Shown here one piece after another: positions 2,724 to 29,733 of a DNA stretch of 64,000 nucleotides. Numbering within the stretch: position 1 is the first letter of the stretch; every line of letters begins with the position of its first letter. A model generated the notes under the pieces. The model was not told where the DNA came from. It searched no databases and saw only the letters and a list, made by a program, of their open reading frames with translations. Position numbers and translations under genes: made by a program. The stretch is from Isoetes taiwanensis (taxonomy: Eukaryota; Streptophyta; Lycopodiopsida; Isoetales; Isoetaceae): contig JAJEKV010000003.1 in the NCBI GenBank assembly GCA_021234155.1, positions 22,163,569 through 22,227,568 on the forward strand, in the 5' to 3' direction.

Positions 2724-3380
2724 TTCTCCCTCCCTTAGAAGTAATGTTGTCCTCAGCATTAGGGTTAGATACAAATATAGGACATCACATTATGAAGGTA
2801 ATATATTAAAACTTTAAAGTTTTAAAAGAGTTTAAGCACCGAGGTGCATTTCACATGATTATCATAAGCAAAAAGTTCAAGGACCGAAGTCCAATATCAA
2901 CATGAGAGTAAGAACAAAGCAAGACGTGTAGACAAAATAAAACTGAAGAAGTCGGGCCATCAGCAACCCTCTAACATGGGCAGGTCACGTACTGCTCACT
3001 TTCCTGCACATGTCAGTATATCAGTATATATAATTAGATTGTGGTTGAAGGGACCACCCCCTATAATAAATAAAAGAAAATCCTATCTACCAGGGAACCT
3101 ATCATGTCTATGGTTTGCAATTCATTGCAGCATAGGGAATGGTCAAGTTCCCATTATAGCCGAGATGAACGCAGCCTTATTAACTATATGCTCTCCAAGC
3201 AAGTCGTGGTCAGGTCAACATTGACAGTACACCACGTCCTAGAGAACACAAAGGTGATCTCATCATCGGTAGCTATTATTATTTACGATGCATCTACCCC
3301 TCTAGAGTGCTACTGTCGGCAATCAAGCTTCCAAGCTTACCGCCGGCTGCGGGGTTGATAGCATCGTTGATGGTGCGGCC
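2724..3380 (-). other. Polypurine tract and 3' noncoding region of the gypsy element
   Basis: Lies between the chromodomain stop (near 3,381) and the LTR (2,723). The polypurine tract is the complement of 2,724-2,736 (AAGGGAGGGAGAA on the minus strand). It primes plus-strand DNA synthesis in LTR elements. The rest has no convincing ORF and is shared with the other copies at 8,174-8,763 and 21,693-22,102. Confidence 0.75.
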
Positions 3381-6300
3381 TTAAGATTCTTGCATGAAGT
3401 CCGGATAGTGTTTCTCAAGGTCTATCTTCATCACCCAGGTAGCATCCTCAACTGGTAAGTGCTTCCACTTAACCAAGTATTGTAACATTTGAGTCCTTCT
3501 GGTTTGTTTATAGGCCCGATCTAGAAGAGCTTCATGCACTATCTCCAGCTGCTCCTCAGTCATTTCTAGGAGGGTCGGGGTATCCAAAACCTCCTCTGGA
3601 TCAGGGGTGTGTTGTTTCAGAAGACTCACGTGAAAGACCTTGTGGATCTTCAAGTGGGGTGGCAAATGCAAGCGATATGCCTGCTCTCCAAGGCGTTCAA
3701 TGATTTTGAGCGGCCCCATCGGGTGCCAACTTCTTACTGATTGCCAATCTTAAGCTTGGCTTGTTTTACCTTAATCTTAAGCCAAACCCGATTCACCCAC
3801 CTGAAAACGCATGGGGTTACAGGCTTATCGGCTACACTCTTTCGATGACTCGTCGCGCCTAATAAGTAACCACGAACTTCTTCGACCAGAGCTTGCATCT
3901 CCAAGAGGATTTGTTCAGAAACCTCCACTTTAGAAACGGGGTTATGCCATGTGTCAGAGTAAGACATTGATAACCATAATTTATCATAAAGGGAGACATT
4001 CGAAGACTCTGTTTTCATCTTTGTTGTAGTAGGCAAACTCGACCAGATAAATATAGTCAGCCCATTGTGATTGCTTACTCCACACATAACTTCTTAGCAT
4101 ATCCTCTATAATGCGATTGGTACGCTCAGTCTGACCATCTGTTTGAGGATGATATGCCGTACTCATAGCAAGCTTGGTCTGGATGGTGGCAAAGAAATCT
4201 TTCCAGAATGCGCTTACGAATTTAGGGTCCCTGTCGGATATAATAACTCGTGGCATTCCGTGTAATCTGAAGATCTCCTTGGCAAATAGCAGAGCAGTAT
4301 CGAAGGCTGTATCCGTGGTACATGGCAAGAAATAAGCCATTTTCGACAATTTGTCGACCACTACCATTAACGCATCATATCCACGGAGAGTACGTGGAAG
4401 GCCCACAATGAAATCCATGGTTATCACTTCCCATTTAGCGTTGGGCACATCCAGAGGTTGCAACTCGCCTGGAATCCTTAACTGCTCAGCTTTGGTTTGT
4501 TGACACACTTGACACTGCTTAATGTACTTGGCAATGTCCTTCTTCATCGAAGGCCAGAAATAACTGGAGCGGATCTTAAAGTAGGTTTTCATAAATCCTG
4601 CATGTCCAGCAATAGGGCTATTGTGTGTGTCATGGAGAATCAGCTTACGTACCCCTGAAGTCTCAGGTACACACAACTTATCCTTGTAATATAACAAGTT
4701 GCCTTCTTTCTTATACGAACGGAAGGCTTCACGCTCCTTATCCGTGCGGGCTTCCTTAGCCAAACTATTCCAAGCACCCCAGAACTCGGGATCCGTGGGT
4801 ACAGTCTGTTCTATCTGTTTCCCAAACTCACTGGTGAGTGTAGAAATTGCATTACAATGGGTTCGGGTGACCAAGGGATGGCGTGATAATGCATCCGCAA
4901 CCACATTGTGCTTTCCAGGTTTATACATAATCTCAAAATCATACTCCTCCAGAAATTCCATCCATCTCCTCTGATGGAGGTTGAGATTCGGCTGGGTGGA
5001 TAAATAACGGAGACTTTGATGGTCCGTATCCAACTGGAATCTTCTACCAAGAAGGTAGTGTCTCCATATCCGCAGGGCACGGACAACGGTTAACAATTCC
5101 TGATCATGAGTAGGATATCGCTGCTCGGTCTCGTTCATTTTCTTTGAGTCATAGGCAATAACCCTCCCCTCCTGCATTAGGACTCCACCGGTGGCAATCT
5201 TACTGGCATCCGTTGCCACTAATTTATTCTTCTCAGGATCGGGCAAAGTGAGGACTGGTGCTGACGTTAAGGCATCTTTAAGCTGCTGGAAACTTCCCTG
5301 AACCCTTGCCTTCCAGTGCTCCGTCCAATCCTTCACCTTCTCATGCTTTGTAAGATTTGTAAGAGGTGCTGCAACCTTTGCAAAATCCTTTACAAATTTC
5401 CGATAATATCCTGCTAACCCCAAGAAACTTTGGACCTCGGAAACATTACCGGGAATAGGCCATTCCCTTACTGCTTCTATCTTTGCCGGATCTGTAGCAA
5501 TTCCCTGTGCATAAATGACATGGCCCAAATAATCGACCTTCGAAGTGGCAAACTTGCACTTAGAGAACTTGGCAAAGAGCTGAGGACGTCTTTGCTTTTG
5601 TAGGGCCAATCTAAGATGTTGCTCATGCTGTTCCAGAGTCTTACTGTAGATGAGAATGTCGTCGAAGAAAATAACAACAAAATCATCCAAGTATTGTCGG
5701 AAGACATCATTCATCAATCGCATGAAGGTTGCTGGGGCATTAGTTAATCCAAAAGGCATAACGGTAAACTCATAATGCCCATATCTAGTGCGAAAAGCAG
5801 ATTTATGGATGTCCTCCTCTTTAATCCTTATCTGATGGTATCCGGAGCGTAGATCAATCTTTGAGAAATACTTGGCCCCTTGCAACTGGTCCATTAGATC
5901 ATCTGCTCTAGGCAAAGCATAGCGATTCTTGATGGTATGCTTGTTGAGTTGCCGATAATCAATACACATCCTCAAGGAGCCATCCTTTTTCTTAACAAAA
6001 AGAATAGGAGCGCCAAAGGGCGAAACACTAGGTCGAATGAAACCTAGGTTTAATAATTCCTGAAGTTGCTTCTTAAGCTCTGCCAACCCTGGGGGACTCA
6101 TACGATACGGGGCCTTACTGGTAGGCTTAGTACCTGGCTCTAAAGCTATCTCACATTCTACCCCTCTAAAAGGAGGAAGCTTCTGGATCTCATCCGGAAA
6201 AAGATCACCAAATTCTCGGAGAAGATTTGCAATCCCCCCTGGCAAGGTGTCGATTAGTTGCTTCTGCTTAGCATCTGACTCAATGGAGGCAAGCCTAATG

Positions 6301-7106
6301 ATGCAGAGGAGCTTTTCCTTGCGTATAGCTTTACCTAACTGCCGGATGGACATAGACTGCATAATAGGGTTGATTGGTTCACCTTTTATAGTCACGCGGG
6401 CTCCATTAGCTGCGTTGAAGGTAACTTCCCGTTTCTCGCAGTCTATGTTGGCCTTTGCAGATGCCAAGAATTCCATACCAACAATGAGGTCGTATTTGCC
6501 AATATCCATTAACTCTGCACCCAAAGCAACTGGTGCACCTGGCAACTGCATCTTGAGATTGATGCGACGGCCATGAGTATGTCTGACCTTACCGCTGGCT
6601 AAAGTGACAGGCTTCGGTCGGGACCTCAAGGTTTCAAGCTGTAATACCTGGGCCATTCTAGGAGAAGCAAAATTATGTGTACTCCCCCGTATCCATAAGA
6701 ATTACAAAAGGCTTACTGTCTACTTGACCTATGGTGGAAATGACAGCAGGCTGACTTTCAGCATTGCCAGTTTCTATAGCTGCAAGGATATGAGACGCAC
6801 CGTGAATATATTCGGGAGCCTCCTCCTCGACAGGTAGTGTTGACTCGAGGTCATCCCAATCGAGGTCGGCCATGGCCAGCTGGGCAGTCTGTGTGACATA
6901 AGGGCAATTCTGCATGAAGTGCCCGGGTCGCATACACCTGTAACATGCCTTATCTCGGCGGAGTTGTTCTCGAGCCTCTTTAAGAATGGACTGTAAGAGG
7001 TTCCGAACTTCTTCACCGACATTGTTTGGTTTATCGGGCGTGCTGAAGGTGACTTTCTTTTCCTGGCGGCCATAAGAGTTCTGTTGAGAGGGCCCCGGAC
7101 TTCCAG
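3381..7106 (-). pseudogene. Chromovirus gag-pol (left arm), frameshifted
   Basis: Ty3/gypsy polyprotein read on the minus strand. In order: gag C-terminus with a CCHC zinc knuckle ([14 protein letters not shown], near 6,900-6,950), aspartic protease (LMDTG, near 6,690), reverse transcriptase (FFDD catalytic motif near 5,650), RNase H (ATDAS near 5,200), integrase with HHCC zinc finger (near 4,490-4,640) and D,D,E core ([21 protein letters not shown]), then a chromodomain (YLVKWKHLPVEDATW) ending at 3,381. The frame breaks at the protease, where this copy has one more G than the right arm just after LMDT. It breaks again near 4,000 and 3,725 in patchy sequence. At 7,106 gag is joined head-to-head to an inverted integrase fragment. 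A dead or badly resolved copy. Chromodomain integrases direct insertion to marked chromatin in characterised chromoviruses. Confidence 0.92.
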
Positions 7107-8173
7107 GCGAGTTGCAACCTCTGGATGTGCCCAACGCTAAATGAGAAGTGATAACCATGGATTTCATTGTGGGCCTTCCACGTACTCTCCGTGGATATGA
7201 TGCGTTAATGGTAGTGGTCGACAAATTGTCGAAAACGGAATGCCACGAGTTACTATATCCGACAGGGACCCTAAATTCGTAAGCGCATTCTGGAAAGATT
7301 TCTTTGCCACCATCCAGACCAAGCTTGCTATGAGTACGGCATATCATCCTCAAACAGATGGTCAGACAGAGCGTACCAATCGCATTATAGAGGATATGCT
7401 AAGAAGTTATGTGTGGAGTAAGCAATCACAATGGGCTGACTATATTTATCTGGTCGAGTTGCCTACAACAGCATGAAACAGGAGTCTTCCAGAATGTCTC
7501 CCTTTATGATAAATTATGGTTATCAATGTCTTACTCCAGACACATGGCATAACCCCGTTTCTAAAGTGGAGGTTTCTCAACAACTCCTCTTGGAAATGCA
7601 AGCTCTGGTCGAAGAAGTTCGTGGTTACTTATTAGCTGCACGCAGTCGTCAGAAGAGTGTAGCCGATAAGCACAGAACCCCACGCGTTTTCCAGGTGGGT
7701 GAATCTATTTGGCTTAAGATTAAGGTAAAACAAGCCAAGCTTAAGATTGGCAACTGTAAGAAGTTGGCACCCAGATGGGCTGGGCCGTTCAAAATCATTG
7801 AACGTCTTGGAGGCAGGCATATCGCTTGCATTTGCCACCCCACTTGAAGATCCACAAGGTCTTTCACGTGAGTCTTCTGAAACAACACACCCCTGATCCA
7901 GAGGAGGTTTTGGACACCCCGACCCTCCTAGAAATGACTGAGGAGCAACTGGAGATAGTGCCTGAAGCTCTTCTTGATCGGACCTATAAACAAACCAGAA
8001 GGACTCAAATGTTACAATACTTGGTTAAGTGGAAGCACTTACCAGTTGAGGATGCTACCTGGGTGATGAAGATAGACCTTGAGAAACACTATCCGGACTT
8101 CATGCAGGAATCTCAAGGCCGCACCATCAACGATGCTATCAACCCCCTGCGGCCGGTAAGCTTGGAAGCTTGA
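7107..8173 (+). pseudogene. Integrase C-terminus and chromodomain fragment
   Basis: Plus-strand copy of the end of the same pol gene, fused tail-to-tail with the minus-strand gag of the neighbouring feature at 7,106/7,107. It starts inside integrase just after the zinc finger. A TGA replaces the Trp codon near 7,140, and about 100 bases are missing after 7,219, removing the segment before ISDRDPKF. Downstream it reads through the TDGQTERTN glutamate motif, the integrase C-terminal domain and the chromodomain (KWKHLPVEDATW). A frame slip lies near 7,810. The same junction occurs inverted at 26,418/26,419, so it arose before the arms were duplicated. Confidence 0.88.
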
Positions 8174-8763
8174 TTGCCGACAGTAGCGCTCTAGAGGGGT
8201 AGATGCATCGTAAATAATAATAGCTACCGATGATGAGATCACCTTTGTGTTCTCTAGGACGTGGTGTACTGTCAATGTTGACCTGACCACGACTTGCTTG
8301 GAGAGCATATAGTTAATAGGCTGCGTTCATCTCGGCTATAATGGGAACTTGACCATTCCCTATGCTGCAATGAATTGCAAACCATAGACATGATAGGTTC
8401 CCTGGTAGATAGGATTTTCTTTTATTTATTATAGGGGGTGGTCCCTTCAACCACAATCTAATTATATATCTTGATATCTTGACATGTGCGGGCCGCGATT
8501 GCAAGATCGTGACCTGCCCATGTTAGAGGGTTGCTGATGGCCCGACTTCTTCAGTTTTATTTTGTCTACACGTCTTGCTTTGTTCTTACTCTCATGTTGA
8601 TATTGGACTTCGGTCCTTGAACTTTTTGCTTATGATAATCATGTGAAATGCACCTCGGTGCTTAAACTCTTTTAAAACTTTAAAGTTTTAATATATTACC
8701 TTCCTTCATAATGTGTGTCCTATATTTGTATCTAACCCTAATGCTGAGGACAGCATTACTCCT
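8174..8763 (+). other. 3' noncoding region of the gypsy element
   Basis: Plus-oriented 3' noncoding region between the chromodomain stop and the polypurine tract. No supported ORF. It is the inverted counterpart of 21,693-22,102 plus 25,124-25,240, and is the uninterrupted version of the site into which the right-arm Helitron inserted. Confidence 0.75.
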
Positions 8764-8776
8764 AAGGAGGGGAGAA
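8764..8776 (+). promoter_or_regulatory. Polypurine tract (plus-strand primer)
   Basis: AAGGAGGGGAGAA lies immediately before the LTR start TGTGACGTTCC. Position and composition are those of an LTR-retrotransposon polypurine tract. Confidence 0.88.
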
Positions 8777-10325
8777 TGTGACGTTCCAAGTATTTATACG
8801 ATATACGTATAAATACATTGACACGTCACCCAGTATAGATACGCCACCATGGGGTATAGTAACCTAGGGGGTTGACCTAAAAGGGATTAAATTAGCTATG
8901 CTAACTTAATCACTAAGGATAATAACTTATAATTAAGGAATTAATAATTAAGGAATTAATAATTAAGAAGGATAATTAAGCTAATTATGGTTTGGGAAGG
9001 CGCCACCTGGCCAAACTCGATTGGCCAGCATGGTGAATACTAATTGGAACCATTAAGGTGGATCACCACCCCCATATCAACCATAATCGACGCAAGTCAC
9101 TGAACAACCACTAGCTGTCGCTGCCACCCTAGTTACAGCAATATGGAAGCACCCCACGATAATGGTTCCAGCCGAAACACGGGTTAGTAGTAGTTTAGCT
9201 TGTGAATTGTAGGATAGTACTTCAGTACTCTTTTCTGATTGCCTTGTTGATATTAACCCTTCGGTGGTAAGTAGGATTATATTTCAGTTATGAATGGTGC
9301 TCTGTTAAGGAATAATTGATGTATCTATGAAGTATTTCGGTAGCTTCCATTAAACAGGGGTTTAAAGGGGGGGGGTAGAGACCTCTGAGCTCATGTATGA
9401 TAGTATGTTCCTAGATAGAGCCCTGTAATATTCCCATTAGATGCGGCCTGTGTACAAGAGACCACCGGGTCGTAGATGCTATGGTATGGCTTAGCACTAG
9501 AGAAGGGACGCAGTGGTGAAGTGGGGGTGGGGTCTTGCACGAACATAAAAGGCTCCTGAGACTCCTACAGTGGGCTAGGCCTGATAGTCGGTCACGTAGA
9601 GGACCGGGTATGGGTCTGACACTCCCTGGGTGTAGAGGTGTGATCCGTATGGAGCATCTTGCACTTTGAGTAGATTTAGGGTGAGTAAGTCGGGTACGGA
9701 TGCGGGGGTCGCTGATGCGGCACGTATTCTCTAGCTCACCCATGGAACCACTGTGATCCTGGAAGGGGACGCTTCCCTGACTTGCCTCATCGGACCGGGG
9801 CGTCATGAACCCTGGAGTAGGCTCAAAGGGTGATACCTTGAGTCTGCGTCTCCAGAAGGCTATAGCGAAGCCATAGCGTGGATCAACCCATCTGCAAAGT
9901 GTGCACAGGAGGGGCGGATGGAGTGGACAACCCTAGCCGATGTTCTATGCCAGCCAACGCCAGGTTATGCCTCTGTCTGCTGATCTCTTGAGACCGAGCC
10001 GTCAGTCCATCCTCACAGGAGTCTGAGCCGGGGGTAGAACCTGGGGTTTGGGGTGTTTTCTTAGGTTTAGATGCATATTCTTTGCCGTTGGTACTTGGAT
10101 GGATGCGCCACCCTTCGTGGTGGTTATTTATATATGATTTATGCTGTGTGCTAACCTTGTACTCATGCTTCCGCGACGTAGGAGCCCATCGAAGGCGTGG
10201 GCTGAATGACATCTCCGTGTCCTTCACTCGAGCATCTCTACGTAGATGGCCCGGGTTAGACGGAGGGCCCTGCTCATGGTGGGATGGTCGCCATGTGAGG
10301 GGAAAGTTCCCGTATGTATACGGCC
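8777..10325 (+). repeat. Ty3/gypsy 3' LTR, truncated
   Basis: Plus-oriented LTR beginning TGTGACGTTCC directly after a polypurine tract. It matches the inverse of 20,101-21,679 along its length. At about 10,325 it stops inside the LTR and is fused to the zinc-knuckle region of gag in the opposite orientation. The last ~0.5 kb, seen at 16,067-16,580, is missing. The LTR holds several chance ORFs which I do not treat as genes. Confidence 0.88.
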
Positions 10326-11423
10326 GGGGGCAATTCTGCATGAAGTGCCCGGGTCGCATACACCTGTAACATGCCTTATCTCGGCGGAATTGTTCTCGAG
10401 CCTCTTTAGGAATGGACTGTAAGAGATTCCGAACTTCTTTACCGACATTGTTTGGTTTATCGGGCGTGCTGAAGGTGACTTTCTTTTCCTGGCGGCCATA
10501 AGAGTTCTGTTGAGAGGGCCCCGGACTTGGCGAGCGGGGTTTGTAAGGTGTGGGCGGCCGTGGCTGCGAGTAAGGAGCAGGACGCGTATACTGGTTCTTT
10601 GGTGTGTCCTCTTCGAGGCTCAATGCCTTAGCCTCAGCCTCTGCAACTGATTTCGGGTCGATGGCCATAACCATTCGTTTAATTGATGGGGCCAACCCTT
10701 CAATGTAGCCCTCCACCGCCCTCTTTTCATTCATGCCTGTACGTACAGCCTCAAGTGCATAAACTCATCAGTGTAGGCCTGAACCGACATACCCTTCTGC
10801 TCTAACCTGTAGAAGGTCTGGATCTGTTGGCATTTGTGTGTATGAGGCACATAATGCGACTTAAAAGCTTTGGCAAACTTTTTGAACTTGCACCTGCTTC
10901 TGTCCAGATGCTTGGCTCTGGCATAGCCCTTCCACCAAATACGGGCAGCTCCTGTAAGGTTTGTTGTGGCAACCTTTCCTGTATCCTTTTCTGTCATGCC
11001 ATAGGATTTCCCAAACTCCTTCATCTTGTCCAACCAGGACTCTGCATTCAGTCCGCCTCTAGATTTCCCATCGAACTGGGCCAGTTTTCTATTCTTCCAT
11101 ATACTAGTTATGGCTGTATCAACCGTCTTGCGGTACTCCTTATCGCGGCGCTTTGCATGGTCACCAGCTGACACCGACGACTCACAGTACACAGAAGTGG
11201 CTGATTGTGAGGAGGTGGCGCTATCCCTAGAAGAACTCCGACGACGTGTAGGACGGGCCCTTCTCTGTGCAGATACATGACTGGTTTCAGGTGGAGATGG
11301 CTGCTGTGTAGGTGGACTTGGCGGTAGCGGAGGTAACTCCGGTTCGTCTTCTTGTATATGCTGTGGTGGAGTGGCGTGCAACACATGAGCTTGTAACTCG
11401 ACTAATTGTCTCTTCATTAACAT
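10326..11423 (-). pseudogene. Chromovirus gag (left arm), frameshifted and truncated
   Basis: Minus-strand gag. A proline/serine-rich N-terminus precedes a retrotransposon gag domain (AESWLDKMKEFGKSYGMTEK, then ARIWWKGYARA) and a CCHC knuckle ([14 protein letters not shown]) near 10,350. Compared with the right-arm copy, one C is missing in the GTACGTAC run near 10,735, which shifts the frame after about 230 codons. Right after the knuckle the frame runs into inverted LTR sequence, so protease and the rest of pol are not connected here. Gag forms the particle shell and binds the RNA. Confidence 0.9.
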
Positions 11424-11925
11424 AAGTTCATGTTCAGGTGTTAGTCTACTGGCATTTGAGGGCGTCTGCCAGGCGGCATTGCGTGCACCGTCTATATCGA
11501 GGATAAAAAGATATAAGCAGAATTATAGTAACATAAAGTCTCACAAAAATATCATTGCGGAGAGGGTAGAGAGAGAATACAAGAAAAAAAAATACGATGG
11601 GCAAGATCCTTATTACAAGGAAAAACAGTCATTTCATTAAGTTTCAGTACATTGGTAGTGACAAAAGTTGATGCAAGGATATAATACAAGGACAGACATT
11701 ATACATCGGAGATTTGAAGTTCAACTCACATAGAGCATAAAAAAAACAAAACTGAGGAGACCGGGCCTAGGGGTTTGCAAATGGGTACAAGATTGAGTAG
11801 CGAACACTTTCACGTACAGCCCTAACGAGCTTGTAACGTGCCCAGGCCTGGACGATAACAGGTTGATAGTCGTATGTGGGGCTTATAATAAGAAGGTTAA
11901 AAAGCCTCCTTAGTGCATAGAAAAG
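11424..11925 (-). other. Noncoding interval between ORF3 and gag
   Basis: About 500 bases without a supported gene, matched inverted at 18,498-19,001. The open frame of gag extends upstream of its first ATG to a stretch that looks like a splice acceptor: in the right arm a pyrimidine-rich run ends in CGATATAG at about 18,932. Splicing is only inferred. Confidence 0.5.
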
Positions 11926-12258
11926 CTACCACAAATGATCGTTGGCATCCTCGAAAGCTTCATGTCTGGACATGTCCCAATAGTCCCATGTGCGGCGAAG
12001 AGTTTGCTTCAGGTCTTCGAAAGCCCGTTCTCTGAGAATGTTAACTACCTCCATCCCCTTGGCTGGATCATAGGGCTCCCCTAGTGGTGCGGGTTCCTCT
12101 ACCTCGTAACCTTCGTCCCATTCGGGGTACTCCCCATACCTTTGGCCATAATCCTGGTCGGGCGGCCCTGGATCATCCCTCCTTATCTGATCGGTAATTC
12201 TCTCTTCATATTCTTCGAGTGTCTCGTCTGCAAGATGATAGAAATGAATATAGAACAT
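11926..12258 (-). CDS. Acidic 110-aa ORF upstream of gag (ORF3)
   Basis: Small ORF starting at ATG 12,258. I do not recognise the family. The protein is acidic and rich in Asp, Glu, Tyr and Pro in its first half (for example DETLEEYEERITDQIRRDD), and its second half has Arg/Trp-containing helices (RRTWDYWDMSRHEAF). A near-identical copy is intact in the right arm (18,165-18,497) with only a few substitutions, which suggests the frame was real when the duplication occurred. It lies in the same orientation as gag and about 0.5 kb upstream. A pyrimidine-rich stretch ending in CTTGCAG just after the start resembles a splice acceptor, so the true N-terminus may come from an upstream exon. Function unknown. 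Confidence 0.55.
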   Translation of the reverse strand: MFYIHFYHLADETLEEYEERITDQIRRDDPGPPDQDYGQRYGEYPEWDEGYEVEEPAPLGEPYDPAKGMEVVNILRERAFEDLKQTLRRTWDYWDMSRHEAFEDANDHLW

Positions 12259-12453
12259 TGAACAATTTCGTTATACTCTAAACTCCAATAGATAGAAGAA
12301 CGCATCATGGAAGAGAACAATTTTAATTGTATTCATTGATACAATAATCACAATTGATAAGAAGATGGTATATCATAACTATAAAATGGCTAAAGAAAAT
12401 GCCAAACCAAAATGCTACAACTATACGCAATACAGAATGCGAAATACAATTAA
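12259..12453 (-). other. Interval holding the inner end of the left inverted-repeat arm
   Basis: Short noncoding interval. The long inverted repeat shared with 18,021-29,733 ends at about 12,400, inside the interval. The right-arm partner joins LTR sequence at the equivalent point, with GCAT common to both partners. Confidence 0.6.
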
Positions 12454-13854
12454 CTAAGAGCTAGGTCCCCCCTCTTCATTCGTAGGCCGAGTGGGTGGTG
12501 GCGGCGGTCGGTGTCGTAGCAGAGTCACCCCTGGGTCTACTGTGGCAGCCGCAATGGAGGCAACCTCCGCCGGATAAGCAACCGCCAATGGGGCCGCCGT
12601 AAGGAGCTTCATACTCATACAGGGTGCAATATCTTGTCCCAGGGCCGTCAAGGCAAGATCCCGTCGTACGAGTACATAAGTGAACGTACGATAGGGAAGC
12701 TTCTTGTGCCCGGCCAATGTGGAAAGAGCACGGAGGGTCCACCATGAAGCTTCGGCCTCCGGCCCTAGGTCCCGGGCTATAAAAAGAACTTGCCCCTGTC
12801 GAAAAGCTGATAAGAAGAAGCGAGTAAGGTGGTTTCCCAATACCTTTCCTTGCGGGGTCTCTGACGTGGCCACCTCCTTATCCAAGTCCATAGGGACTTC
12901 TTTTTCCTTGAGTTCTTGCTGCTCTTCCTTCAAATGAGCAGGATTATGGTATAAATCCTCTCCCTCCTCATCCGAATCGGAGGGAACCTCGACCATATTA
13001 ATATTTGGAACATGGGGTCCCATAGCCATAAAGGCTTCCGGTGAAGGCTGAGAGGCCGGATCCCGCATCACTAGTTCCCGAAGTCGTAGCAAAGTCTCAG
13101 CTGGCTCTAAGGTCTCCTGGTGGAATTGGAGTAGCTGTTGTACCTCCTGAGGAAGCTCAATAGGAGCGAAGTCGATGAAGTCATCCATACAATACTCCGC
13201 TAATTCATAGAGTACATGGTCCTTGCGCCGGCGCTTAAACCCGGCCACCATGTGATAGGTCCAGATGATATCATCCAAGAGAAGATATTCTTGCCCTTGG
13301 TGATACACAACTGGAAGGGCGTCTAGCCCTGACAAGTGTGCAGCTTGTTCCCGGCGTGGTGGCATCTCCTCTGCCAACTGCTTCCAACGGGCGAAGTCAC
13401 CCATGCCTATATGCTCATCTTCTTCTTCCTCAAAAGGCTCAGGAAGTTTGCCTTTCTCTGCCGGCAAAGTCTCATCCTCAACATATTGGTCCATGAGGAT
13501 GGCTAGGGCAAAGGCAACTTCGAGATATTGTCGCCCCTGATGCTGCACAACTGGCAACTGCTTGCCCCATCTAAGCTTCCCTTTCAGCACATCATACGCG
13601 TGGGTGTCACCCCCTAGCATATCCCGGACTACATCCCGTTCTAGATACAACTGGAGAGGATCCCCAAGAGGAATACACAAAGGAAGCATCTCCTCTGTAT
13701 AAAACTCTAAGAATCCGGCATAATCTGGGTGCCGCTGCATATTAGTGATGAGATCAAGGCGCTGACATAGCAAGGGCCGTAACAGGTCGAAGGGCACTTG
13801 CGGATCCCAATGCTCTCCATCCTGGTACCATGCAAGTAGGTCGGTGGCAGCCAT
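12454..13854 (-). CDS. 466-aa unknown protein of the element's 5' region (ORF2)
   Basis: Open frame of 466 codons from ATG 13,854, which sits in a good initiation context (CCCATGG). An in-frame extension of 10 codons upstream lacks an ATG. I do not recognise the family. Two internal segments resemble each other, LPVVQHQGRQYLEVA (about residues 100-115) and LPVVYHQGQEYLLLD (about 185-200), each followed by a hydrophobic helix, so there may be a duplicated domain. The middle is acidic (SDSDEEGEDLYHN, then EELKEKE-like stretches), and the C-terminus is a proline run (RPPPPPTRP). No membrane segment or signal peptide is seen. It lies between the H3-like ORF and ORF3, all in the same orientation and downstream of the primer-binding site. 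An intact frame of this length suggests recent selection or recent insertion. A structural or chromatin-related role is only a guess. Confidence 0.65.
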   Translation of the reverse strand: MAATDLLAWYQDGEHWDPQVPFDLLRPLLCQRLDLITNMQRHPDYAGFLEFYTEEMLPLCIPLGDPLQLYLERDVVRDMLGGDTHAYDVLKGKLRWGKQLPVVQHQGRQYLEVAFALAILMDQYVEDETLPAEKGKLPEPFEEEEDEHIGMGDFARWKQLAEEMPPRREQAAHLSGLDALPVVYHQGQEYLLLDDIIWTYHMVAGFKRRRKDHVLYELAEYCMDDFIDFAPIELPQEVQQLLQFHQETLEPAETLLRLRELVMRDPASQPSPEAFMAMGPHVPNINMVEVPSDSDEEGEDLYHNPAHLKEEQQELKEKEVPMDLDKEVATSETPQGKVLGNHLTRFFLSAFRQGQVLFIARDLGPEAEASWWTLRALSTLAGHKKLPYRTFTYVLVRRDLALTALGQDIAPCMSMKLLTAAPLAVAYPAEVASIAAATVDPGVTLLRHRPPPPPTRPTNEEGGPSS

Positions 13855-14044: not shown

Positions 14045-14689
14045 CTAAGGATGCTCTCCCCGAATCCTGCAGGCGAGGGCTAAATCCTTTGGCATTATGG
14101 TGACCCTCTTTGCGTGGATAGCGCAAAGATTGGCATCACCAAATAGTGCCACCAGGTAGGCCTCCGCAGCCTCTTGGAGCGCCAAGATGCCAAAAGTCTG
14201 GAAGCGGAGGTCGGTTTTAAACTCTTGGGCGATCTCCCGAACCAACCTCTGAAAGGGGAGCTTCCATATCAGAAGTTGCGTGGACTTCTGAAACTTACGG
14301 ATCTCCCGTAAGGCCACAGTGCCGGGTCGGAACCGGTGGGGTTTCCTTTGTGGAGCAGGGTTGGTAGGCGCCCCCCTCTGTCGTGGTACCGTCTTGGCCC
14401 CAACAACTGGTCGAGAAGCATCCACCCGCTCCTGCCTCCGACTGGAGCTCGCTTTCTTCCCAAAAGCTCTGACAGTCTTTAGCTTTTCCTTGTACTGGCT
14501 GCCGGACTTTCGGGCTACGGCTTTCCGCCGGTGCTTAACGGTTGTATGCTCCGTTTGGGTTGGGCCATGCCCACTCCCCGATCCCCCATTCCCCTGCCGA
14601 TCCGGCTGCTCTTCCCGGGCCTTCGCCTCCTTTTCCCTTTGGATCCTTTCCTGCTCCTCTCTGAACTCCCGAGCTCTCCTGAGGTCTTC
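14045..14689 (-). CDS. Histone H3-like domain protein, in frame after a TAG
   Basis: Open frame of 214 codons with a complete histone H3 fold at its C-terminus. It has the alpha-N region ([17 protein letters not shown]), alpha-1 ([20 protein letters not shown]), alpha-2 ([14 protein letters not shown], then [10 protein letters not shown]) and alpha-3 ([15 protein letters not shown]). By eye against remembered canonical plant H3, about 80 of the last 99 residues match. Cys110, His113, Arg116 and Asp123 equivalents at the H3-H3' interface are kept; Arg63 is Trp and Arg128 is Cys. Loop 1 has canonical length, unlike CENH3. The usual N-tail (ARTKQT, K4, K14) is absent. Instead there is a Glu/Arg coiled-coil-like stretch, a Gly/Ser linker and a basic tail with an ARKS motif (14,504-14,515). 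There is no in-frame ATG after the TAG at 14,690-14,692, and the frame is the same as the upstream 204-codon ORF, so expression would need readthrough or loss of that stop. It lies between a retroelement primer-binding site and gag, same strand. Confidence 0.85.
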
Positions 14690-15304
14690 CTAAACATCAG
14701 CGTACAGTCGTGTTGTACTGCGGTGAAGGAGCTCAGCGTGGTACCGGTCAGGTCGCTGGTTCATATCAATCTGGACCGTCGTTAGGTAATCCAGACTGAT
14801 ATTAGGAATCACTCCCCACATGAAGCTCTGAGAAGCTTCATGCCATGTATATGGGGGAATCTCGATGGCCCTGCCATCAATGATGGCGACTCCATCTCCA
14901 AGGTACCTGTACTCTCGACCTCGAGCCGCTGTATCGGCTCGTTCTATCTCTCTGCGGTCATCCTCCCTGGCCAAGTTCCGAATGCGGTCGGTCTCTGCTC
15001 TTATGTCCTCCTCTTCAGTGTGGCCTTCGCATTCGGAAGGGTAGAACTTAACCAACATCATGACCAAGTCAGGTTGCTCGGCCATGGTGTAAGGAAGCTG
15101 GCGGAGATTGAGCCTGACCAAAAACGGCTCCGAGTAATGGTAAATGGGATAGGGGATCCTATCATTATTCTCAAATCTGTTTACCAACTCGTTCAAAAGT
15201 ATATCAATGAAGACAGGGTCAGTAGCCATATGCCGGGCGATCAAAGTATAAATTTCCACTATGGTGAGGGTAGTGGGGTCCACGGTGCTCTTGGTGTTGG
15301 CCAT
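14690..15304 (-). CDS. 204-aa unknown ORF, first after the primer-binding site (ORF1)
   Basis: Starts at ATG 15,304 in a good context (GTATGGCC) and ends at TAG 14,690-14,692; the same frame then continues into the H3-like domain. The first ~90 residues look globular (IYTLIARHMATDPVFIDILL, then RLNLRQLPYTM). They are followed by a charged helical stretch (EEEDIRAETDRIRNLARED) and a second globular part ending LYADV. I recognise no family. The charged helix, and another just after the TAG, suggest coiled-coil or oligomerising segments of one longer protein. Being the first ORF after the leader, it is the natural start of translation on the genomic RNA, and the H3-like part could be a C-terminal extension made at low level. 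Function unknown. Confidence 0.65.
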   Translation of the reverse strand: MANTKSTVDPTTLTIVEIYTLIARHMATDPVFIDILLNELVNRFENNDRIPYPIYHYSEPFLVRLNLRQLPYTMAEQPDLVMMLVKFYPSECEGHTEEEDIRAETDRIRNLAREDDRREIERADTAARGREYRYLGDGVAIIDGRAIEIPPYTWHEASQSFMWGVIPNISLDYLTTVQIDMNQRPDRYHAELLHRSTTRLYADV

Positions 15305-16052
15305 ACTATGGCGCTGAGGTCTAGGTAGGGCGCTTGCGGCTAGGGAAGCGGTAGTGAAGGCGCTAGGGTTAACGAAGAACCAGGGTGGAAGAACAAGGTC
15401 AGGTCCGGCGGCTATGGCAGGCGTCGGCTCTAGCGGCCGAAGGCGCTTTAAGGCAGGGAGGAAGCAAAAAGTTAACGGCCTTTAACCCCTAAAAAGTTTT
15501 AAAAGTTTGCTTATTATTTTTTTTTTAAAAAAAACATTATACGGCAGAAGAATACGCGCAAAAATACGGTCGGGCGCCGACGGCATTCTACGCGCTCCCA
15601 CCGCGACTGGGGGTCGTCGAAAAGCAAGCGGCACCCGGGTTGACTTTCGGGCCCGGGTTGACTCGCGACGGTACAGTCGGGCACCGACAGCATTTTAGGC
15701 TCTCCCACCGCGACTGCAAGGCGACAAAATTCAAGCGGCGCCCGAGTTGACTTTCGGGCCTTTCCGTGACCATTTTTCTGCCAGCGACGACTGTCCTAGG
15801 GTATTTGGGTACGCCCGATCCAATAGAACCACTTTCTCCTTCATCTAAACTACCTACAAAAATTTATAACCCCTCCAAACTTGGGGCCTCCAGTTGCCCT
15901 AAACGTATTAAGACTTACACCCTACTACATCAACCTAGCACAGAACCAAACATCAAAGAGCTAAACAATCATACTAGCTTAACTTCCACCTAACCACCGA
16001 ACTAACGAGTTAGGGTTTGGCCAGTGCTATGATTTCGAGCAATCGAAATCAC
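15305..16052 (-). other. Untranslated leader of the gypsy element
   Basis: About 750 bases between the primer-binding site and ORF1 with no convincing ORF. It contains two imperfect direct repeats of roughly 115 bases (about 15,565-15,680 and 15,680-15,775), recognisable by CTCCCACCGCGACTG and GTTGACTTTCGGGCC, each GC-rich. Next to ORF1 there are homopolymer runs near 15,517-15,535. Such repeats in a retroelement leader could fold for packaging or dimerisation, but this is inference. Confidence 0.6.
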
Positions 16053-16065
16053 GGCTCTGATACCA
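16053..16065 (-). promoter_or_regulatory. Primer-binding site for tRNA-iMet
   Basis: The minus strand reads TGGTATCAGAGCC, the classic complement of the 3' end of initiator methionine tRNA. It lies one base after an LTR end (CGTCACA). This fixes the element's orientation and shows that the ORFs at 15,304-10,326 lie just downstream of a 5' LTR. Confidence 0.93.
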
Positions 16066-16066
16066 C

Positions 16067-18023
16067 TGTGACGCTCCCTGAATATATACGACCCCGGGGG
16101 ATTCACCTCTATTATAGGTATATATGCCATGTGCGTTCCTTAGGTTGCCAAAAAACCCATTGTATACGACAATTCCATATGAAAAACCCTTTGTATACGA
16201 CTACATTATTTGTAAAAGAATGCAGCCCATATCATATAATTACTTGCCTAAAACTCTTTTACTTGACAACCCCTTCCATACATATACGATATCTCTATTA
16301 TTTTATATATATGTAATATATATTATCATAGTCATATCATATTATCACAGAATCCCCAACAGTAGAAGCTCACCAAAAATGACGGACCCTTACAGTATGA
16401 ATACAAATCGAACAATGGCGCCACCACACTCCCTCTGGTATCTGTACGACATTCAACCTATAAAAACCTTATATTTTTCTTATGTATACGGTACCAGAGA
16501 GGCAATAAAAAAACCCATTTGGTGCACTCACATGTTTCATACCCCATAATCTAGGTGAACCCCCCGGGTATACGACCCTCGGCCGTATACATACGGGGAC
16601 TTTCCCCTCACATGGCGACCATCCCACCATGAGCAGGGCCCTCCGTCTAACCTGGGCCATCTACGTAGAGATGCTCGAGTGAAGGACACGGAGGTGTCAT
16701 TCGGCTCACGCCTTCGATGGGCTCCTACGTCGCGGAAGCATGAGTACAAGGTTAGCACATAGCATAAATCATATATAAATAACCACCACGAAGGGTGGCG
16801 CATCCATCCAAGTACCAACGGCAAAGAATATGCATCTAAACCTAAGAAAACACCCCAAACCCCAGGTTCTACCCCGGCTCAGACTCCTGTGAGGATGGAC
16901 TGACGGCTCGGTCTCAAGAGATCGTGAGATGAGGGTGTAACCCGGCGTTAGTGGCATAGAAAATCGGCTAGGGTTGTCCACTCCATCCGCCCCTCCTGTG
17001 CACACTTTGCAGATGGGTCGATCCACGCTATGGGTTCGCTATAGCCTTCCGGAGACGCAGACTCAAGGTATCACCCTTTGAGCCTACTCCAGGGTTCATG
17101 ACGCCCCGGTCCGATGAGACAGGTCAGGGAAGCGTCCCCTTCCAGGGATCCAAGTGGTTCCATGGGTGAGCTAGAGAATACGTGCGCGCATCGGCGACCC
17201 TTGCATCCGTGCATTCACTTACTCACCCTAAATCTACTCAAAGTGCAAGATGCTCCATACGGATCACACCTCTACACCCGGGGAGTGTCGGACCCATACC
17301 GGTCCTCTACGTGACCCGGGCTATCGCCTAGTCCACTTTGTAGGAGTCTCAGGAGCCTTTTATGTTCGTGCAAGACCCCACCCCCACTTCACCACTGCGT
17401 CGCTTCTCTGGTGCTAAGCCATACCATAGCGTCTACGACCCGGTGGTCTCTTGTACACATGCCGCATCTAATGGAAACATTACGAGCTCTATCTAGGAAC
17501 ATACTATCATACATGAGCTCAAAGGTCTCTACCCCCTTTAAACCCCTTTTTAATGGAAGCTACCGAAATACTTCATAGATACATCGATCATTCCTTAACA
17601 GAGCACCATTCATAACTGAAATATAATCCTACTTACCACCGAAGGGTTAATATCAACAAGGCAATCAGAAAAGAGTACTGAAATACTATCTTACAATTCA
17701 CAAGCTAAACTACTACTAACCCATGTTTCGGCTGGAACCATTATCGTGGGGTGCTTCCATATTGCTGTAACTAGGGTGGCAGCGACAGCTAGTCGTTGTT
17801 CAGTGACTTGGGGAAATCAGCAACAATCCTTGGGCGCTCAACTGCGTCGATTATGGTTGATATGGGGGTGGTGATCCACCTTAATGGTTCCAATTAGTAT
17901 TCACCATGCTGGCCAATCGAGTTTGGCCAGGTAGCGCCTTCCCAAACCATAATTAGCTTAATTATCCTTCTTAATTATTAATTCCTTAATTATAGGTTAT
18001 TATCCTTAGTGATTAAGTTAGCA
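16067..18023 (-). repeat. Ty3/gypsy 5' LTR, truncated at its start
   Basis: Minus-oriented LTR whose 3' end (..GAGCGTCACA) is at 16,067. It carries the terminal ~0.5 kb missing from the other copies (16,067-16,580) and then matches 20,101-21,530. It is cut at about 18,021-18,023, where a GCAT shared by both partners joins it to the noncoding flank of ORF3 in the opposite orientation. Combining this copy with 20,101-21,679 gives a full LTR of about 2.1 kb. Confidence 0.88.
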
Positions 18024-18164
18024 TTTTCTTTAGCCATTTTATAGTTATGATATACCATCTTCTTATCAATTGTGATTATTGTATCAATGAATACAATTAA
18101 AATTGTTCTCTTCCATGATGCGTTCTTATATATATTGGAGTTTAGAGTATAACGAAATTGTTCA

Positions 18165-18497
18165 ATGTTCTATATTCATTTCTATCGTCTTGCAGACGAG
18201 ACACTCGAAGAATATGAAGAGAGAATTACCGATCAGATAAGGAGGGATGATCCATGGCCGCCCGACCAGGATTATGGCCAAAGGTATGGGGAGTACCCCG
18301 AATGGGACGAAGGTTACGAGGTAGGGGAACCCGCACCACCAGGGGAGCCCTATGATCCAGCCAAGGGGATGGAGGTAGTTAACATTCTCAGAGAACGGGC
18401 TTTCGAAGACCTGAAGCAAACTCTTCGCCGCACATGGGACTATTGGGACATGTCCAGGCATGAAGCTTTCGAGGATGCCAACGATCATTTGTGGTAG
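18165..18497 (+). CDS. Acidic 110-aa ORF, right-arm copy (ORF3)
   Basis: Inverted duplicate of 11,926-12,258, starting at ATG 18,165 and intact. It differs in a few residues (for example a Trp for Gly after DDP and Gly for Glu after EV). Noncoding sequence of about 500 bases separates it from gag. The same acceptor-like CTTGCAG lies a few codons into the frame. Function unknown; conservation between arms may reflect either selection or recent duplication. Confidence 0.55.
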   Translation: MFYIHFYRLADETLEEYEERITDQIRRDDPWPPDQDYGQRYGEYPEWDEGYEVGEPAPPGEPYDPAKGMEVVNILRERAFEDLKQTLRRTWDYWDMSRHEAFEDANDHLW

Positions 18498-19001
18498 CTT
18501 TTCTATGCACTAAGGAGGCTTTTTAACCTTCTTATTATAAGCCCCACATACGACTATCAACCTGTTATCGTCCAGGCCTGGGCACGTTACAAGCTCGTTA
18601 GGGCTGTACGTGAAAGTGTTCGCTACTCAATCTTGTACCCATTTGCGAACCCCTAGGCCCGGTCTCCTCAGTTTTGTTTTTTTTATGCTCTATGTGAGTT
18701 GAACTTCAAATCTCCGATGTATAATGTCTGTCCTTGTATTATATCCTTGCATCAACTTTTGTCACTACCAATGTACTGAAACTTAATGAAATGACTGTTT
18801 TTCCTTGTAATAAGGATCTTGCCCATCGTATTTTTTTTTTCCTTGTATTCTCTCTCTACCCTCTCCGCAATGATATTTTTGTGAGACTTTATGTTACTAT
18901 AATTCTGCTTATATCTTTTTATCCTCGATATAGACGGTGCACGCAATGCCGCCTGGCAGACGCCCTCAAATGCCAGTAGACTAACACCTGAACAGGAACT
19001 T

Positions 19002-20096
19002 ATGTTAATGAAGAGACAATTAGTCGAGTTACAAGCTCATGTGTTGCACGCCACTCCACCACAGCATATACAAGAAGACGGACCGGAGTTACCTCTGCTA
19101 CCGCCAAGTCCACCTACACAGCAGCCATCTCCACCTGAAACCAGTCCTGTACCTGCACAGAGAAGGGCCCGTCCTAAACGTCATCGGAGTTCTTCTAGGG
19201 ATAGCGCCACCTCCTCACAATCAGCCACTTCTGTGTCCTGTGAGTCGTCGGTGTCAGCTGGTGACCATGCAAAGCGCCGCGATAAGAAGTCTGCAAAGGC
19301 GGTTGATCTGACCATAACTAGTATATGGAAGAATAGAAAACTGGCCCAGTTCGATGGGAAATCTAGAGGCGGACTGAATGCAGAGTCCTGGTTGGACGAG
19401 ATGAAGGAGTTTGGGAAATCCTATGGCATGACAGAAAAGGATACAGGAAAGGTTGCCACAACAAACCTTACAGGAGCTGCCCGTATTTGGTGGAAGGGCT
19501 ATGCCAGAGCCAAGCATCTGGACAGAAGCAGGTGCAAGTTCAAAAAGTTTGCCAAAGCTTTTAAGTCGCATTATGTGCCTCGTACGCACAAATGCCAACA
19601 GATCCAGACCTTCTACAGGTTAGAGCAGAAGGGTATGTTGGTTCAGGCCTACACTGATGAGTTTATGCGCTTGAGGCTGTACGTACCAGGCATGAATGAA
19701 AAGAGGGCGGTGGAGGGCTACATTGAAGGGTTGGCCCCATCAATTAAACGAATGGTTAAGGCCATCGACCCGAAATCAGTTGCAGAGGCTGAGGCTAAGG
19801 CATTGAGCCTCGAAGAGGACACACCAAAGAACCAGTATCTGCGTCCTGCTCCTTACTCACAGCCACGGCCGCCCACACCTTACAAACCCCGCTCGCCAAG
19901 TCCGGGGCCCTCTCAGCAGAACTCTTATGGCCGCCAGGAAAAGAAAGTCACCTTCAGCACGCCCGATAAACCAAACAATGTCGGTAAAGAAGTTCGGAAT
20001 CTCTTACAGTCCATTTCTAAAGAGGCTCGAGAACAACTCCGCCGAGATAAGGCATGTTACAGGTGTATGCGACCCGGGCACTTCATGCAGAATTGC
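19002..20096 (+). CDS. Chromovirus gag (right arm), frame intact up to a rearrangement
   Basis: Gag from ATG 19,002 with no frameshift. A Pro/Ser/Arg-rich N-terminus precedes the gag domain (GGLNAESWLDEMKEFGK, ARIWWKGYARAKH, TFYRLEQKGM), a Pro-rich linker, and a CCHC knuckle ([14 protein letters not shown]) near 20,050-20,095. After the knuckle the natural continuation into protease is lost. The frame instead runs for about 60 codons into inverted LTR sequence and stops at 20,282, so those residues are not genuine gag. The same false join is seen at about 10,325 in the left arm. The frame is also open upstream of the first ATG to 18,903, preceded by an acceptor-like CGATATAG. Confidence 0.9.
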
Positions 20097-21679
20097 CTCC
20101 GGCCGTATACATACGGGAACTTTCCCCTCACATGGCGACCATCCCACCATGAGCAGGGCCCTCCGTCTAACCCGGGCCATCTACGTAGAGATGCTCGAGT
20201 GAAGGACACGGAGGTGTCATTCGGCTCACGCCTTCGATGGTCTCCTACGTCGTGGAAGCATGAGTACAAGGTTAGCACATAGCATAAATCATATATAAAT
20301 AACCACCACGAAGGGTGGCGCATCCATCCAAGTACCAACGGCAAAGAATATGCATCTAAACCTAAGAAAACACCCCAAACCCCAGGTTCTACCCCCAGCT
20401 CAGACTCCTGTGAGGATGGACTGACGGCTCGGTCTCAAGAGATCAGCAGACAGAGGTATAACCTGGCGTTGGCTGGCATAGAACATCGGCTAGGGTTGTC
20501 CACTCCATCCGCCCCTCCTGTGCACACTTTGCAGATGGGTCGATCCACGCTATGGCTTCGCTATAGCCTTCCGGAGACGCAGACTCAAGGTATCACCGTT
20601 TGAGCCTACTCCAGGGTTCATGACGCCCCGGTCCGATGAGGCAGGTCAGGGAAGCGTCCCCTTCCAGGATCACAATGGTTCCATGGGTGAGCTAGAGAAT
20701 ACGTGCCGCATCAGCGACCCCCGCATCCGTACCCGACTTACTCACCCTAAATCTACTCAAAGTGCAAGATACTCCATACGGATCACACCTCTACACCCAG
20801 GGAGTGTCAGACCCATACCCGGTCCTCTACGTGACCGACTATCAGGCCTAGCCCATTGTAGGAGTCTCAGGAGCCTTTTATGTTCGTGCAAGACCCCACC
20901 CCCACTTCACCACTGCGTTCCCTTCTCTAGTGCTAAGCCATACCATAGCGTCTACGACCCGGTGGTCTCTTGTACACAGGCCGCATCTAATGGGAATATT
21001 ACAGGGCTCTATCTAGGAACATACTATCATACATGAGCTCAGAGGTCTCTACCCCCCCTTTAAACCCCTGTTTAATGGAAGCTACCGAAATACTTCATAG
21101 ATACATCGATCATTCCTTAACAGAGCACCATTCATAACTGAAATATAATCCTAACCACCGAAGGGTTAATATCAACAAGGCAATCAGAAAAGAGTACTGA
21201 AGTACTATCCTACAATTCACAAGCTAAACTACTACTAACCCGTGTTTCGGCTGGAACCATTATCGTGGGGTGCTTCCATATTGCTGTAACTAGGGTGGCA
21301 GCGACAGCTAGTGGTTGTTCAGTGACTTGGGAAAATCAGCAACAGTCCTTGGGCGCTCAACTGCGTCGATTATGGTTGATATGGGGGTGGTGATCCACCT
21401 TAATGGTTCCAATTAGTATTCACCATGCTGGCCAATCGAGTTTGGCCAGGTGGCGCCTTCCCAAACCATAATTAGCTTAATTATCCTTCTTAATTATTAA
21501 TTCCTTAATTATTAATTCCTTAATTATAAGTTATTATCCTTAGTGATTAAGTTAGCATAGCTAATTTAATCCCTTTTAGGTCAACCCCCTAGGTTACTAT
21601 ACCCCATGGTGGTGTATCTATACTGGGTGACGTGTCAATGTATTTATACGTATACCGTATAAATACTTGGAACGTCACA
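20097..21679 (-). repeat. Ty3/gypsy 3' LTR, truncated (minus orientation)
   Basis: Minus-oriented LTR starting at 21,679 (TGTGACGTTCC on the minus strand) beside a polypurine tract, and ending at about 20,097 where it is fused to gag. It is the inverted counterpart of 8,777-10,325. Confidence 0.88.
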
Positions 21680-21692
21680 TTCTCCCCTCCTT
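21680..21692 (-). promoter_or_regulatory. Polypurine tract
   Basis: The minus strand reads AAGGAGGGGAGAA immediately before the LTR start at 21,679; identical to the tract at 8,764-8,776. Confidence 0.88.
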
Positions 21693-22102
21693 AGGAGTAA
21701 TGCTGTCCTCAGCATTAGGGTTAGATACAAATATAGGACATCACATTATGAAGGAAGGTAATATATTAAAACTTTAAAGTTTTAAAAGAGTTTAAGCACC
21801 GAGGTGCATTTCACATGATTATCATAAGCAAAAAGTTCGAGGACCGAAGTCCAATATCAACATGAGAGTAAGAACAAAGCAAGACGTGTAGACAAAATAA
21901 AACTAAAGAAGTCGGGCCATCAGCAACCCTCTAACATGGGCAGGTCACGTACTACTCACTAGCCTGCACATGTCAGTATATCAGTATATATAATTAGATT
22001 GTGGTTGAAGGGACCACCCCCTATAATAAATAAAAGAAAATCCTATCTACCAGGGAACCTATCATGTCTATGGTTTGCAATTCATTGCAGCATAGGGAAT
22101 TA
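21693..22102 (-). other. 3' noncoding region of the gypsy element, cut by a Helitron
   Basis: Matches the inverse of 8,345-8,763. The Helitron begins at 22,103. Compared with the uninterrupted left arm, about 36 bases next to the Helitron 5' end are missing; the element resumes at 25,124 (TTAACTATATGCTC). Confidence 0.75.
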
Positions 22103-25100: not shown

Positions 25101-25123
25101 GCAACGCTGGGCACCGTTACTAG
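22103..25123 (+). mobile_element. Non-autonomous Helitron, copy 1
   Basis: Begins TCCTATATTATAATG after an A and ends CTAG before a T. A perfect 7-bp stem (GCCCAGC / GCTGGGC, loop AAC) at 25,096-25,112 lies 7 bases before CTAG. These are the hallmarks of Helitrons: 5' TC, 3' CTRR, subterminal hairpin, A|T insertion and no target duplication. About 3.0 kb, nearly identical to 42,850-45,888. No Rep/helicase ORF is present, so it would need a helper. A short open stretch around 22,410-22,545 (including PPYVRSELARLLFPDG) could be a captured exon. It lies inside gypsy sequence present only uninterrupted in the left arm, so it inserted after the arms were duplicated. Confidence 0.9.
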
Positions 25124-29400: not shown

Positions 29401-29733
29401 ACCAATCGCATTATAGAGGATATGCTAAGAAGTTATGTGTGGAGTAAGCAATCACAATGGGCTGACTATATTTATCTGGTCGAGTTTGCCTACAACAGCA
29501 TGAAACAGGAGTCTTCCAGAATGTCTCCCTTTATGATAAATTATGGTTATCAATGTCTTACTCCAGACACATGGCATAACCCCGTTTCTAAAGTGGAGGT
29601 TTCTGAACAACTCCTCTTGGAGATGCAAGCTCTGGTCGAAGAAGTTCGTGGTTACTTATTAGCTGCACGCAATCATCAGAAGAGTGTAGCTGATAAGCAC
29701 AGAACCCCATGCGTTTTCCAGGTGGGCAGAGGA
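26419..29733 (+). pseudogene. Chromovirus gag-pol (right arm), long open frame
   Basis: Plus-strand polyprotein open from 26,419 to about 29,308. Order: gag C-terminus with a zinc knuckle (near 26,575-26,620), protease DTG (26,830-26,838), reverse transcriptase with FFDD (about 27,850), RNase H with TDAS (about 28,308), integrase HHCC (about 28,890-29,030) and core ([16 protein letters not shown]). The knuckle reads [14 protein letters not shown]: the zinc-binding His of the other copies is Gln here. A patch at about 29,305-29,315 introduces a stop; the frame then resumes through TDGQTERTN to 29,733, where a LINE begins, so the integrase C-terminus and chromodomain are missing. The open frame continues about 50 codons upstream of 26,419 only because it reads antisense integrase, which is not real coding sequence. 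Confidence 0.92.

Follow-up and report, generated by a model that had tools for sequence, protein, structure and literature searches.

A complete histone H3 fold within a Ty3/chromovirus-type LTR retrotransposon family of Isoetes taiwanensis

Can a retrotransposon carry a core histone gene as part of its own transposed unit, and what would such an element do with a histone? The question is raised by a minus-strand open frame in Isoetes taiwanensis, found in a 64-kb stretch of DNA that was analysed as a whole (here called the window). A sequence-only reading of the window took this frame to be a complete H3 fold inside an LTR chromovirus.

The H3 frame and its surroundings in the window

The minus-strand open frame 14689..14045 consists of 214 codons, stop to stop. 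It gives a Pfam Histone match (PF00125) of 4.2e-38 and matches H3 chains in PDB, the best at 7.6e-51 over residues 95–213. These matches are far above chance and the histone H3 identity of the frame is therefore beyond doubt. The proposal of a complete H3 fold inside an LTR chromovirus is borne out both by these matches and by the order of features in the family copies described below.

The gene limits first given, 14045..14689, are not upheld. The frame extends upstream to an ATG at 15304, giving 204 codons, then a TAG at 14690–14692 and then the H3 part. None of the 10 family copies read at 20 kb has a stop at the place of the TAG, thus the interval covers no more than the C-terminal half of an ORF1 of ~420 codons, which the TAG splits in the window copy. 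In relatives with intact frames, ORF1 is one protein of ~420 residues, with a novel N-terminal domain (N-domain), a long helix, a basic tail and a complete H3 fold. For comparison, 35 different copies were reduced to 27 with an unsplit ORF1 (25 without any stop); eight with a split or partial frame were dropped. The sequence-only reading had placed weight on a tryptophan at position 63, but this position is R in 25/27 copies and Q in one, and W is private to the window copy. Both R63W and the TAG are private mutations of that copy. Neither a second copy of ORF1 nor any N is present in the 64-kb window.

An AlphaFold model of ORF1 shows the N-domain as a mixed alpha/beta fold followed by a single long helix of 50 residues (185–234). 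A low-confidence stretch follows the helix, and residues 236–320 have a pI of 11.6. In the model of full ORF1 the H3 part is also of low confidence, which is attributed to a shallow alignment and to the absence of the partner from the model. A Foldseek search with the ORF1 model gave a nucleosome H3 chain as the sole match at E<=0.001, and the fold search with the N-domain gave no convincing match. No N-domain relatives were found at E<=0.001 among word-sharing candidates from ~5.8 billion proteins, with relatives of the window copy as queries.

The order primer-binding site, H3, gag on one strand, as first read, is confirmed on the minus strand of the window copy (Table 1). We take the motif TGGTATCAGAGC to fit tRNA-iMet. 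In the window gag, Retrotrans_gag and Ty3_capsid are above the Pfam cut-off and a CCHC knuckle is below it. The window copy, a decayed one, is part of a rearranged cluster; its pol has been displaced and it has no clean LTR pair.

Table 1. Features of the H3-carrying element copy in the window, with the chromodomain of a related copy
Feature	Positions	Strand	Basis or identity
Probable rest of 5' LTR (L015 LTR bases 118-1596, 88%), beyond a 473-base insert	16569..18024	-	
5' LTR, its 3' end, 30 bases	16066..16095	-	100% to L015 LTR
Primer-type motif TGGTATCAGAGC	16054..16065	-	
Leader from LTR end to ORF1, primer motif included	15324..16065	-	84.8% to L015 leader
ORF1 N-terminal domain, 204 codons, begins MANTKST	14693..15304	-	No Pfam family above cut-off
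In-frame TAG splitting ORF1 of the window copy	14690..14692	-	Stop absent there in the other 26 translated copies
Open frame, ORF1 C-terminal half: end of long helix, basic tail, H3 fold, stop codon included	14045..14689	-	
Core of the H3 histone fold, 98 codons corresponding to H3 residues 38-135, at ORF1 C-terminal end	14048..14341	-	Pfam PF00125, PDB, residue tables
ORF2, 466 aa, without Pfam match	12454..13854	-	93% DNA identity to L015
ORF3 region, 110-aa frame 11926-12258 still open, without Pfam match	11770..12268	-	
Gag capsid, frame-broken in the window copy	10328..11518	-	Pfam PF03732 (Retrotrans_gag), PF19259 (Ty3_capsid)
Remaining gag and pol of the family, displaced past inverted segment 7097-10330	3297..7102	-	
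Chromodomain without first and third cage aromatics	L016:2426-2974; window relatives 3297-3841, 25241-25789		

Several rearrangements are seen in the window. In the minus-strand copy (3297–10330), gag 1–1199 joins an inverted LTR/pol-end piece and gag restarts at 999, an overlap of 200 bases. Both breakpoints recur in a copy on the opposite strand (20096–20098 and 26420–26425, in the region 18018–29687). As the two copies share the same two breakpoints, a self-integrated element has apparently undergone copying or duplication. In the H3 copy, 16096–16568 is the insert that interrupts the probable 5' LTR. There is also a 3-kb direct repeat, 22102–25124 and 42849–45889, 97.9% identical, with one unit inside the rearranged cluster and the other 20 kb away. 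The segment 45969–53050 is repeat-rich and consists partly of long F- and P-rich minus-strand open frames, which are probably low-complexity repeats.

The retrotransposon family in the genome

The H3 frame was used to search the eukaryotic genome assembly, which comprises 1,658,258,908 bases in 1,110 contigs, and yielded 12,364 first-look candidates. Of these, 150 were scored; they show identities from 100% down to 76%, and many of them sit in open frames of 400–500 codons. With canonical H3 as the query, 15 of the 150 scored loci are host-like (97–99%) and the other 135 are at 72–87%; many of the 135 coincide with places found with the element query. An exact codon search of the genome for the element-specific motif GDANLC-x-IHA gave 859 occurrences, 431 forward and 428 reverse, and the reversed control gave 0. 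Copies are present on many contigs, which makes the question of an assembly join unimportant for the family.

Ten copies, picked for open ORF1 frames, were fetched at 20 kb each. The earlier reading had suggested a check of relatives for the H3 frame between primer site and gag, and ORF1-H3 is found at the same place in 10/10. The primer motif TGGTATCAGAGC is exact in seven of the ten and mutated in an eighth, and none was found in the remaining two. A full LTR pair of ~1.6 kb lies within the 20 kb in five copies (pairs 93.6–96.2% identical) and partial pairs are found in two further copies. The LTRs of the five end with CGTCAC and start with TGTGAC, except for one 5' LTR in which the first base differs. 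All five LTR-paired copies show 5-bp target duplications, identified by eye: tcttc, gctgt, ctgtg, gggaa and ccctt.

The L015/L016 copy, the only one scanned with Pfam in full, measures ~13.2 kb from one LTR end to the other. Its order is primer-binding site (PBS), ORF1-H3, ORF2, ORF3, gag, PR-RT-RNaseH-INT and chromodomain. Matches above the Pfam cut-off are Histone (at the end of ORF1), PF19259, PF03732, RVP_2, RVT_1, RT_RNaseH, Integrase_H2C2 and the chromodomain (PF00385, 4.1e-08, with PDB chromodomain matches from 6.2e-05); zf-CCHC and rve are below cut-off. ORF2 and ORF3 show no Pfam match in either the window copy or L015/L016. In other sampled copies the gag, pol or ORF2 frames are broken. 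The family is a Ty3/chromovirus-type LTR retrotransposon, and the histone lies within a transposed unit that has a gag and a pol of its own; this context of LTR, primer site and gag is that of the 10 long copies, with the deepest subfamilies (L042, L051 and L055 groups) outside this set. A hAT transposon, the type that carries H3L in fungi, was considered and rejected: Pfam scans of the ORFs given show no transposase family, and LTRs and 5-bp duplications are present instead.

For the deepest sampled clade (L042, L054, L058) the N-domain was used as the query, and 150 of 2,351 candidates were scored. Among these, 21 matches overlap the listed motif region. Fourteen of them (13 loci) have the exact H3 motif 645–959 bases downstream on the same strand, and the other seven are without the motif in that range (it is found at 1,505 bases in one and at 3,024 bases in another). 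The probability of the motif occurring by chance in a 1,600-base stretch is 0.0004.

Origin of the element H3 and selection on it

A tree was made from the 27 element rows, three distinct host H3 sequences and 12 other eukaryotic H3 rows. A branch with support 99/98 separates all 27 element H3 cores from the rest, in a tree whose bootstrap is not fully settled and in which two of the 12 other eukaryotic rows, P0004 and P0055, have odd ends, one of them being long-branched. Six positions, T86, I89, G/S105, A107, L124 and P135, are fixed in 27/27 element rows and absent from 12/12 host loci. Synonymous differences between element and host H3 are saturated (0.79–1.04). With the element rows standing apart and synonymous differences to the host saturated, the possibility of a recent host H3 pseudogene, which the sequence-only reading had said would count against it, is rejected. 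A single old capture from a host-like H3, followed by diversification, appears to fit best.

Centromeric H3 was a further candidate. CENH3 has a longer loop 1 and a divergent core. The element H3 has no indel relative to canonical H3 and its lower-identity rows are 72–87% identical to the canonical query, and a CENH3 identity was rejected on this basis, the tree being one without a true CENH3.

The N-domains of representative subfamilies are as low as 26–39% identical and their H3 domains are 84–96% identical. Pairwise dN/dS medians by dS class (26 rows) are 0.03–0.06 for H3, 0.07–0.15 for the N-domain and 0.23–0.47 for the tail, with synonymous saturation in 83/325 pairs for H3 and in 156/325 pairs for the N-domain. 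A maximum likelihood codon model with 27 rows gives omega values of 0.036, 0.140 and 0.244 for the same three regions. In the 10 long copies the median dN/dS is 0.025 for the H3 domain versus 0.098 for the ORF1 N-domain (45 pairs each). Other medians are 0.043 for RT (10 pairs, five copies), 0.045 for INT (six pairs, four copies), 0.148 for the capsid (21 pairs, seven copies), 0.127 for the chromodomain region and 0.091 for RNase H. The H3-domain values, ~0.025–0.036, are the lowest among the element domains measured; the comparison with RT and INT is tilted to H3, since the 10 copies were selected for open ORF1 and not for pol, and that with the N-domain is free of this tilt, both domains being in ORF1. 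The sample as a whole is biased, as copies were drawn from the top-scoring protein matches, most of them with open ORF1 frames. Sampling bias cannot, however, create high synonymous divergence beside unchanged amino acids. The C-terminal quarter of ORF1 is a complete H3 that has been under very strong purifying selection during diversification of the family.

Median dN/dS is 0.10 for ORF2 and 0.076 for ORF3. These are two more retrotransposon proteins under constraint that have no Pfam match.

The selection data nearly exclude the view that the H3 segment is a passenger, that is, a functionless host gene fragment spread by transposition, and we consider this highly improbable. There is a precedent for such a fate, as H3-carrying fungal hAT copies are inactivated in Pseudocercospora fijiensis and five relatives (PMC6710886). 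The very low dN/dS at high synonymous divergence argues against it here, as does an in-frame fusion that persists across subfamilies with N-domains that differ as widely as those above.

Contact residues, possible roles and related systems

The H3 core is gap-free relative to host H3 at 98/98 positions in all 27 copies compared. Residues that we take to be contacts are mostly as in the host: 290/297 cells for DNA contacts, 296/297 for the H3-H3' interface and 610/621 for positions facing H4, a total of 1196/1215. Retention of the H3-H3' interface had already been noticed from the letters alone. Over all 98 core positions 2,282/2,646 cells are as in the host and 364 differ. Of these differing cells, 132 fall in a seven-position patch (86–90, 105 and 107), presumably one that distinguishes between variants and between chaperones, and the other 232 fall outside it; as the patch list was made after the fixed differences were known, this clustering is a hint and not a test.

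Position 105 is E in the host and G (25 copies) or S (two copies) in the element; D106 is kept in 27/27. In cells, the H3.1 double mutant E105A/D106A loses DNAJC9, NASP, ASF1, MCM2, CAF-1 and H4, and in vitro, H3.3 with the same changes pairs with H4 and binds the other chaperones tested (PMC8221569). The double-mutant result transfers only partly, because the element keeps D106. The changes at these positions weakly suggest that chaperone use by the element H3 may be altered.

The canonical N-terminal tail with K4, K9, K27 and K36 is absent, as had been read from the window. It is not simply lost, however, but replaced by another basic tail of different sequence (~85 residues, pI 11.6 in copy L015). 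A lysine located two residues ahead of G-[SA]-Q-Y-[KR] in this tail is kept in 26/27 copies.

The nearly unchanged element H3 suggests that the parasite uses a histone of its own to package or mark DNA. The leading explanation, to which we give a nearly even chance, takes ORF1 for an H3 variant owned by the element, which would pair with host H4 and be laid on the element's own DNA. The ORF1 H3 would dimerise with host H4 by way of the retained interface and tetramerise by way of the retained H3-H3' bundle. The DNA in question would be cDNA in the pre-integration complex or a freshly integrated copy. The N-domain and long helix may supply self-association and localisation, and the changed chaperone-contact positions may exclude the ORF1 H3 from the ordinary H3 supply line. 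With a different tail in place of the canonical one, these nucleosomes would withstand the normal silencing marks and shield cDNA. The benefit to the element could be protection of cDNA, a chromatin state resistant to K9/K27 marking, or both.

The same retained nucleosome-contact positions and replaced tail would also suit a role directed at the host, in which the ORF1 H3 widely enters host nucleosomes, displaces H3 that can be methylated at K9 and K27, and weakens silencing of all copies. The H4 of bracoviruses offers a parallel, as it enters the nucleosomes of the host (PMC9145170). Some of the chaperone-contact changes may hinder the ordinary deposition pathway, however, and an element present in hundreds of copies would pay a high price for disturbing its host so broadly. 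We regard this role as unlikely.

The presence of a chromodomain in the element, together with the tail lysine, which has an ARKS or ARKT context in 13/27 copies, brings up integration targeting, where ORF1-H3 nucleosomes or the ARKS-like tail would show the integrase and chromodomain encoded by the element where to land. But the chromodomain is without the first and third cage aromatics (by eye), similar to plant group II chromodomains (criteria from PMC3350952), and the ARKS/ARKT context is missing in 14/27 copies, deep subfamilies among them. Targeting of this kind is decidedly improbable.

The H3 fold might instead only bind DNA or dimerise in the particle, perhaps with host H4, and form no true nucleosomes. 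A core histone is not usually joined to a long N-terminal part, here one in which a 50-residue helix is predicted, and the fusion would agree with such a module. The near-complete retention of the presumed contact cells goes beyond what a generic DNA binder would need, and there is little probability that this is the role of the fold.

Returning to the element-owned H3 variant, its relation to known systems was considered. No retroelement-encoded core histone was found in the literature searched, with most subscription journals outside it, in agreement with the sequence-only reading. The word histone is absent from the available part of the Isoetes taiwanensis genome paper (PMC8566536). Tentatively, then, and at a probability somewhat short of even, this would be the first known reverse-transcribing element with a core histone, building its own type of nucleosome on its own DNA. 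Under such a reading, an H3 variant with an element-specific tail and N-domain would pair with host H4, possibly with its own deposition route, and cDNA or new copies would bear a chromatin identity made by the parasite.

The H3L of fungal hAT elements in Pyrenophora tritici-repentis and in P. fijiensis and its relatives is also a case of a mobile element that amplified an H3 sequence (PMC3538342, PMC6710886). These carriers are DNA transposons with terminal inverted repeats, and with 8-bp duplications in P. fijiensis, where, as in the five relatives, RIP inactivated the H3 copies (PMC6710886). In P. tritici-repentis the H3L copies are near-alike and ESTs are known (PMC3538342). Unlike the fungal hAT, the Isoetes family is an LTR retroelement with 5-bp duplications, in-frame fusion of H3 to a domain that has no known relatives, and long-term purifying selection across diverged subfamilies.

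Single histones of viruses (H4 of bracoviruses; H2B and H3 of some DNA viruses) are also host-derived and host-like and likely enter nucleosomes, but their carriers are DNA viruses or polydnaviriforms, unlike the Isoetes retrotransposon (PMC9145170). The stems retrotranspos and retrovirus are absent from the available part of this review.

Plant Ty3/gypsy elements have captured AlkB/2-ODD (in an orchid element), chromodomain, PMD, AIR1, B3, G-patch, KOW and ArgoL2, and the likeness to the Isoetes family is that added domains of chromatin or RNA function become fixed (PMC9289625). In the available part of that paper histone is mentioned twice, for marks and demethylation and not as an encoded protein. 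Unlike those captures, the added gene in Isoetes has its place between the primer site and gag, fused to a domain that has no known relatives. Ogre elements carry an ORF upstream of gag. Ogre-type retrotransposons are likewise large and have extra ORFs without known function (PMC6431247). Compared by description, the Isoetes family is set apart from Ogre by its chromodomain, its three extra ORFs before gag and its H3 fold.

The family amounts to hundreds of natural H3 variants selected outside host gene function, and bears on how much H3 may vary with its core retained. Anyone looking for H3 or CENH3 genes in a genome of this kind should expect element copies among the matches. The finding also bears on chromatin packaging of retroviral-type cDNA and on the escape of elements from H3K9/H3K27 silencing. 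Chromoviruses are thought to read chromatin by their chromodomains; the Isoetes family can apparently also supply a component of the nucleosome.
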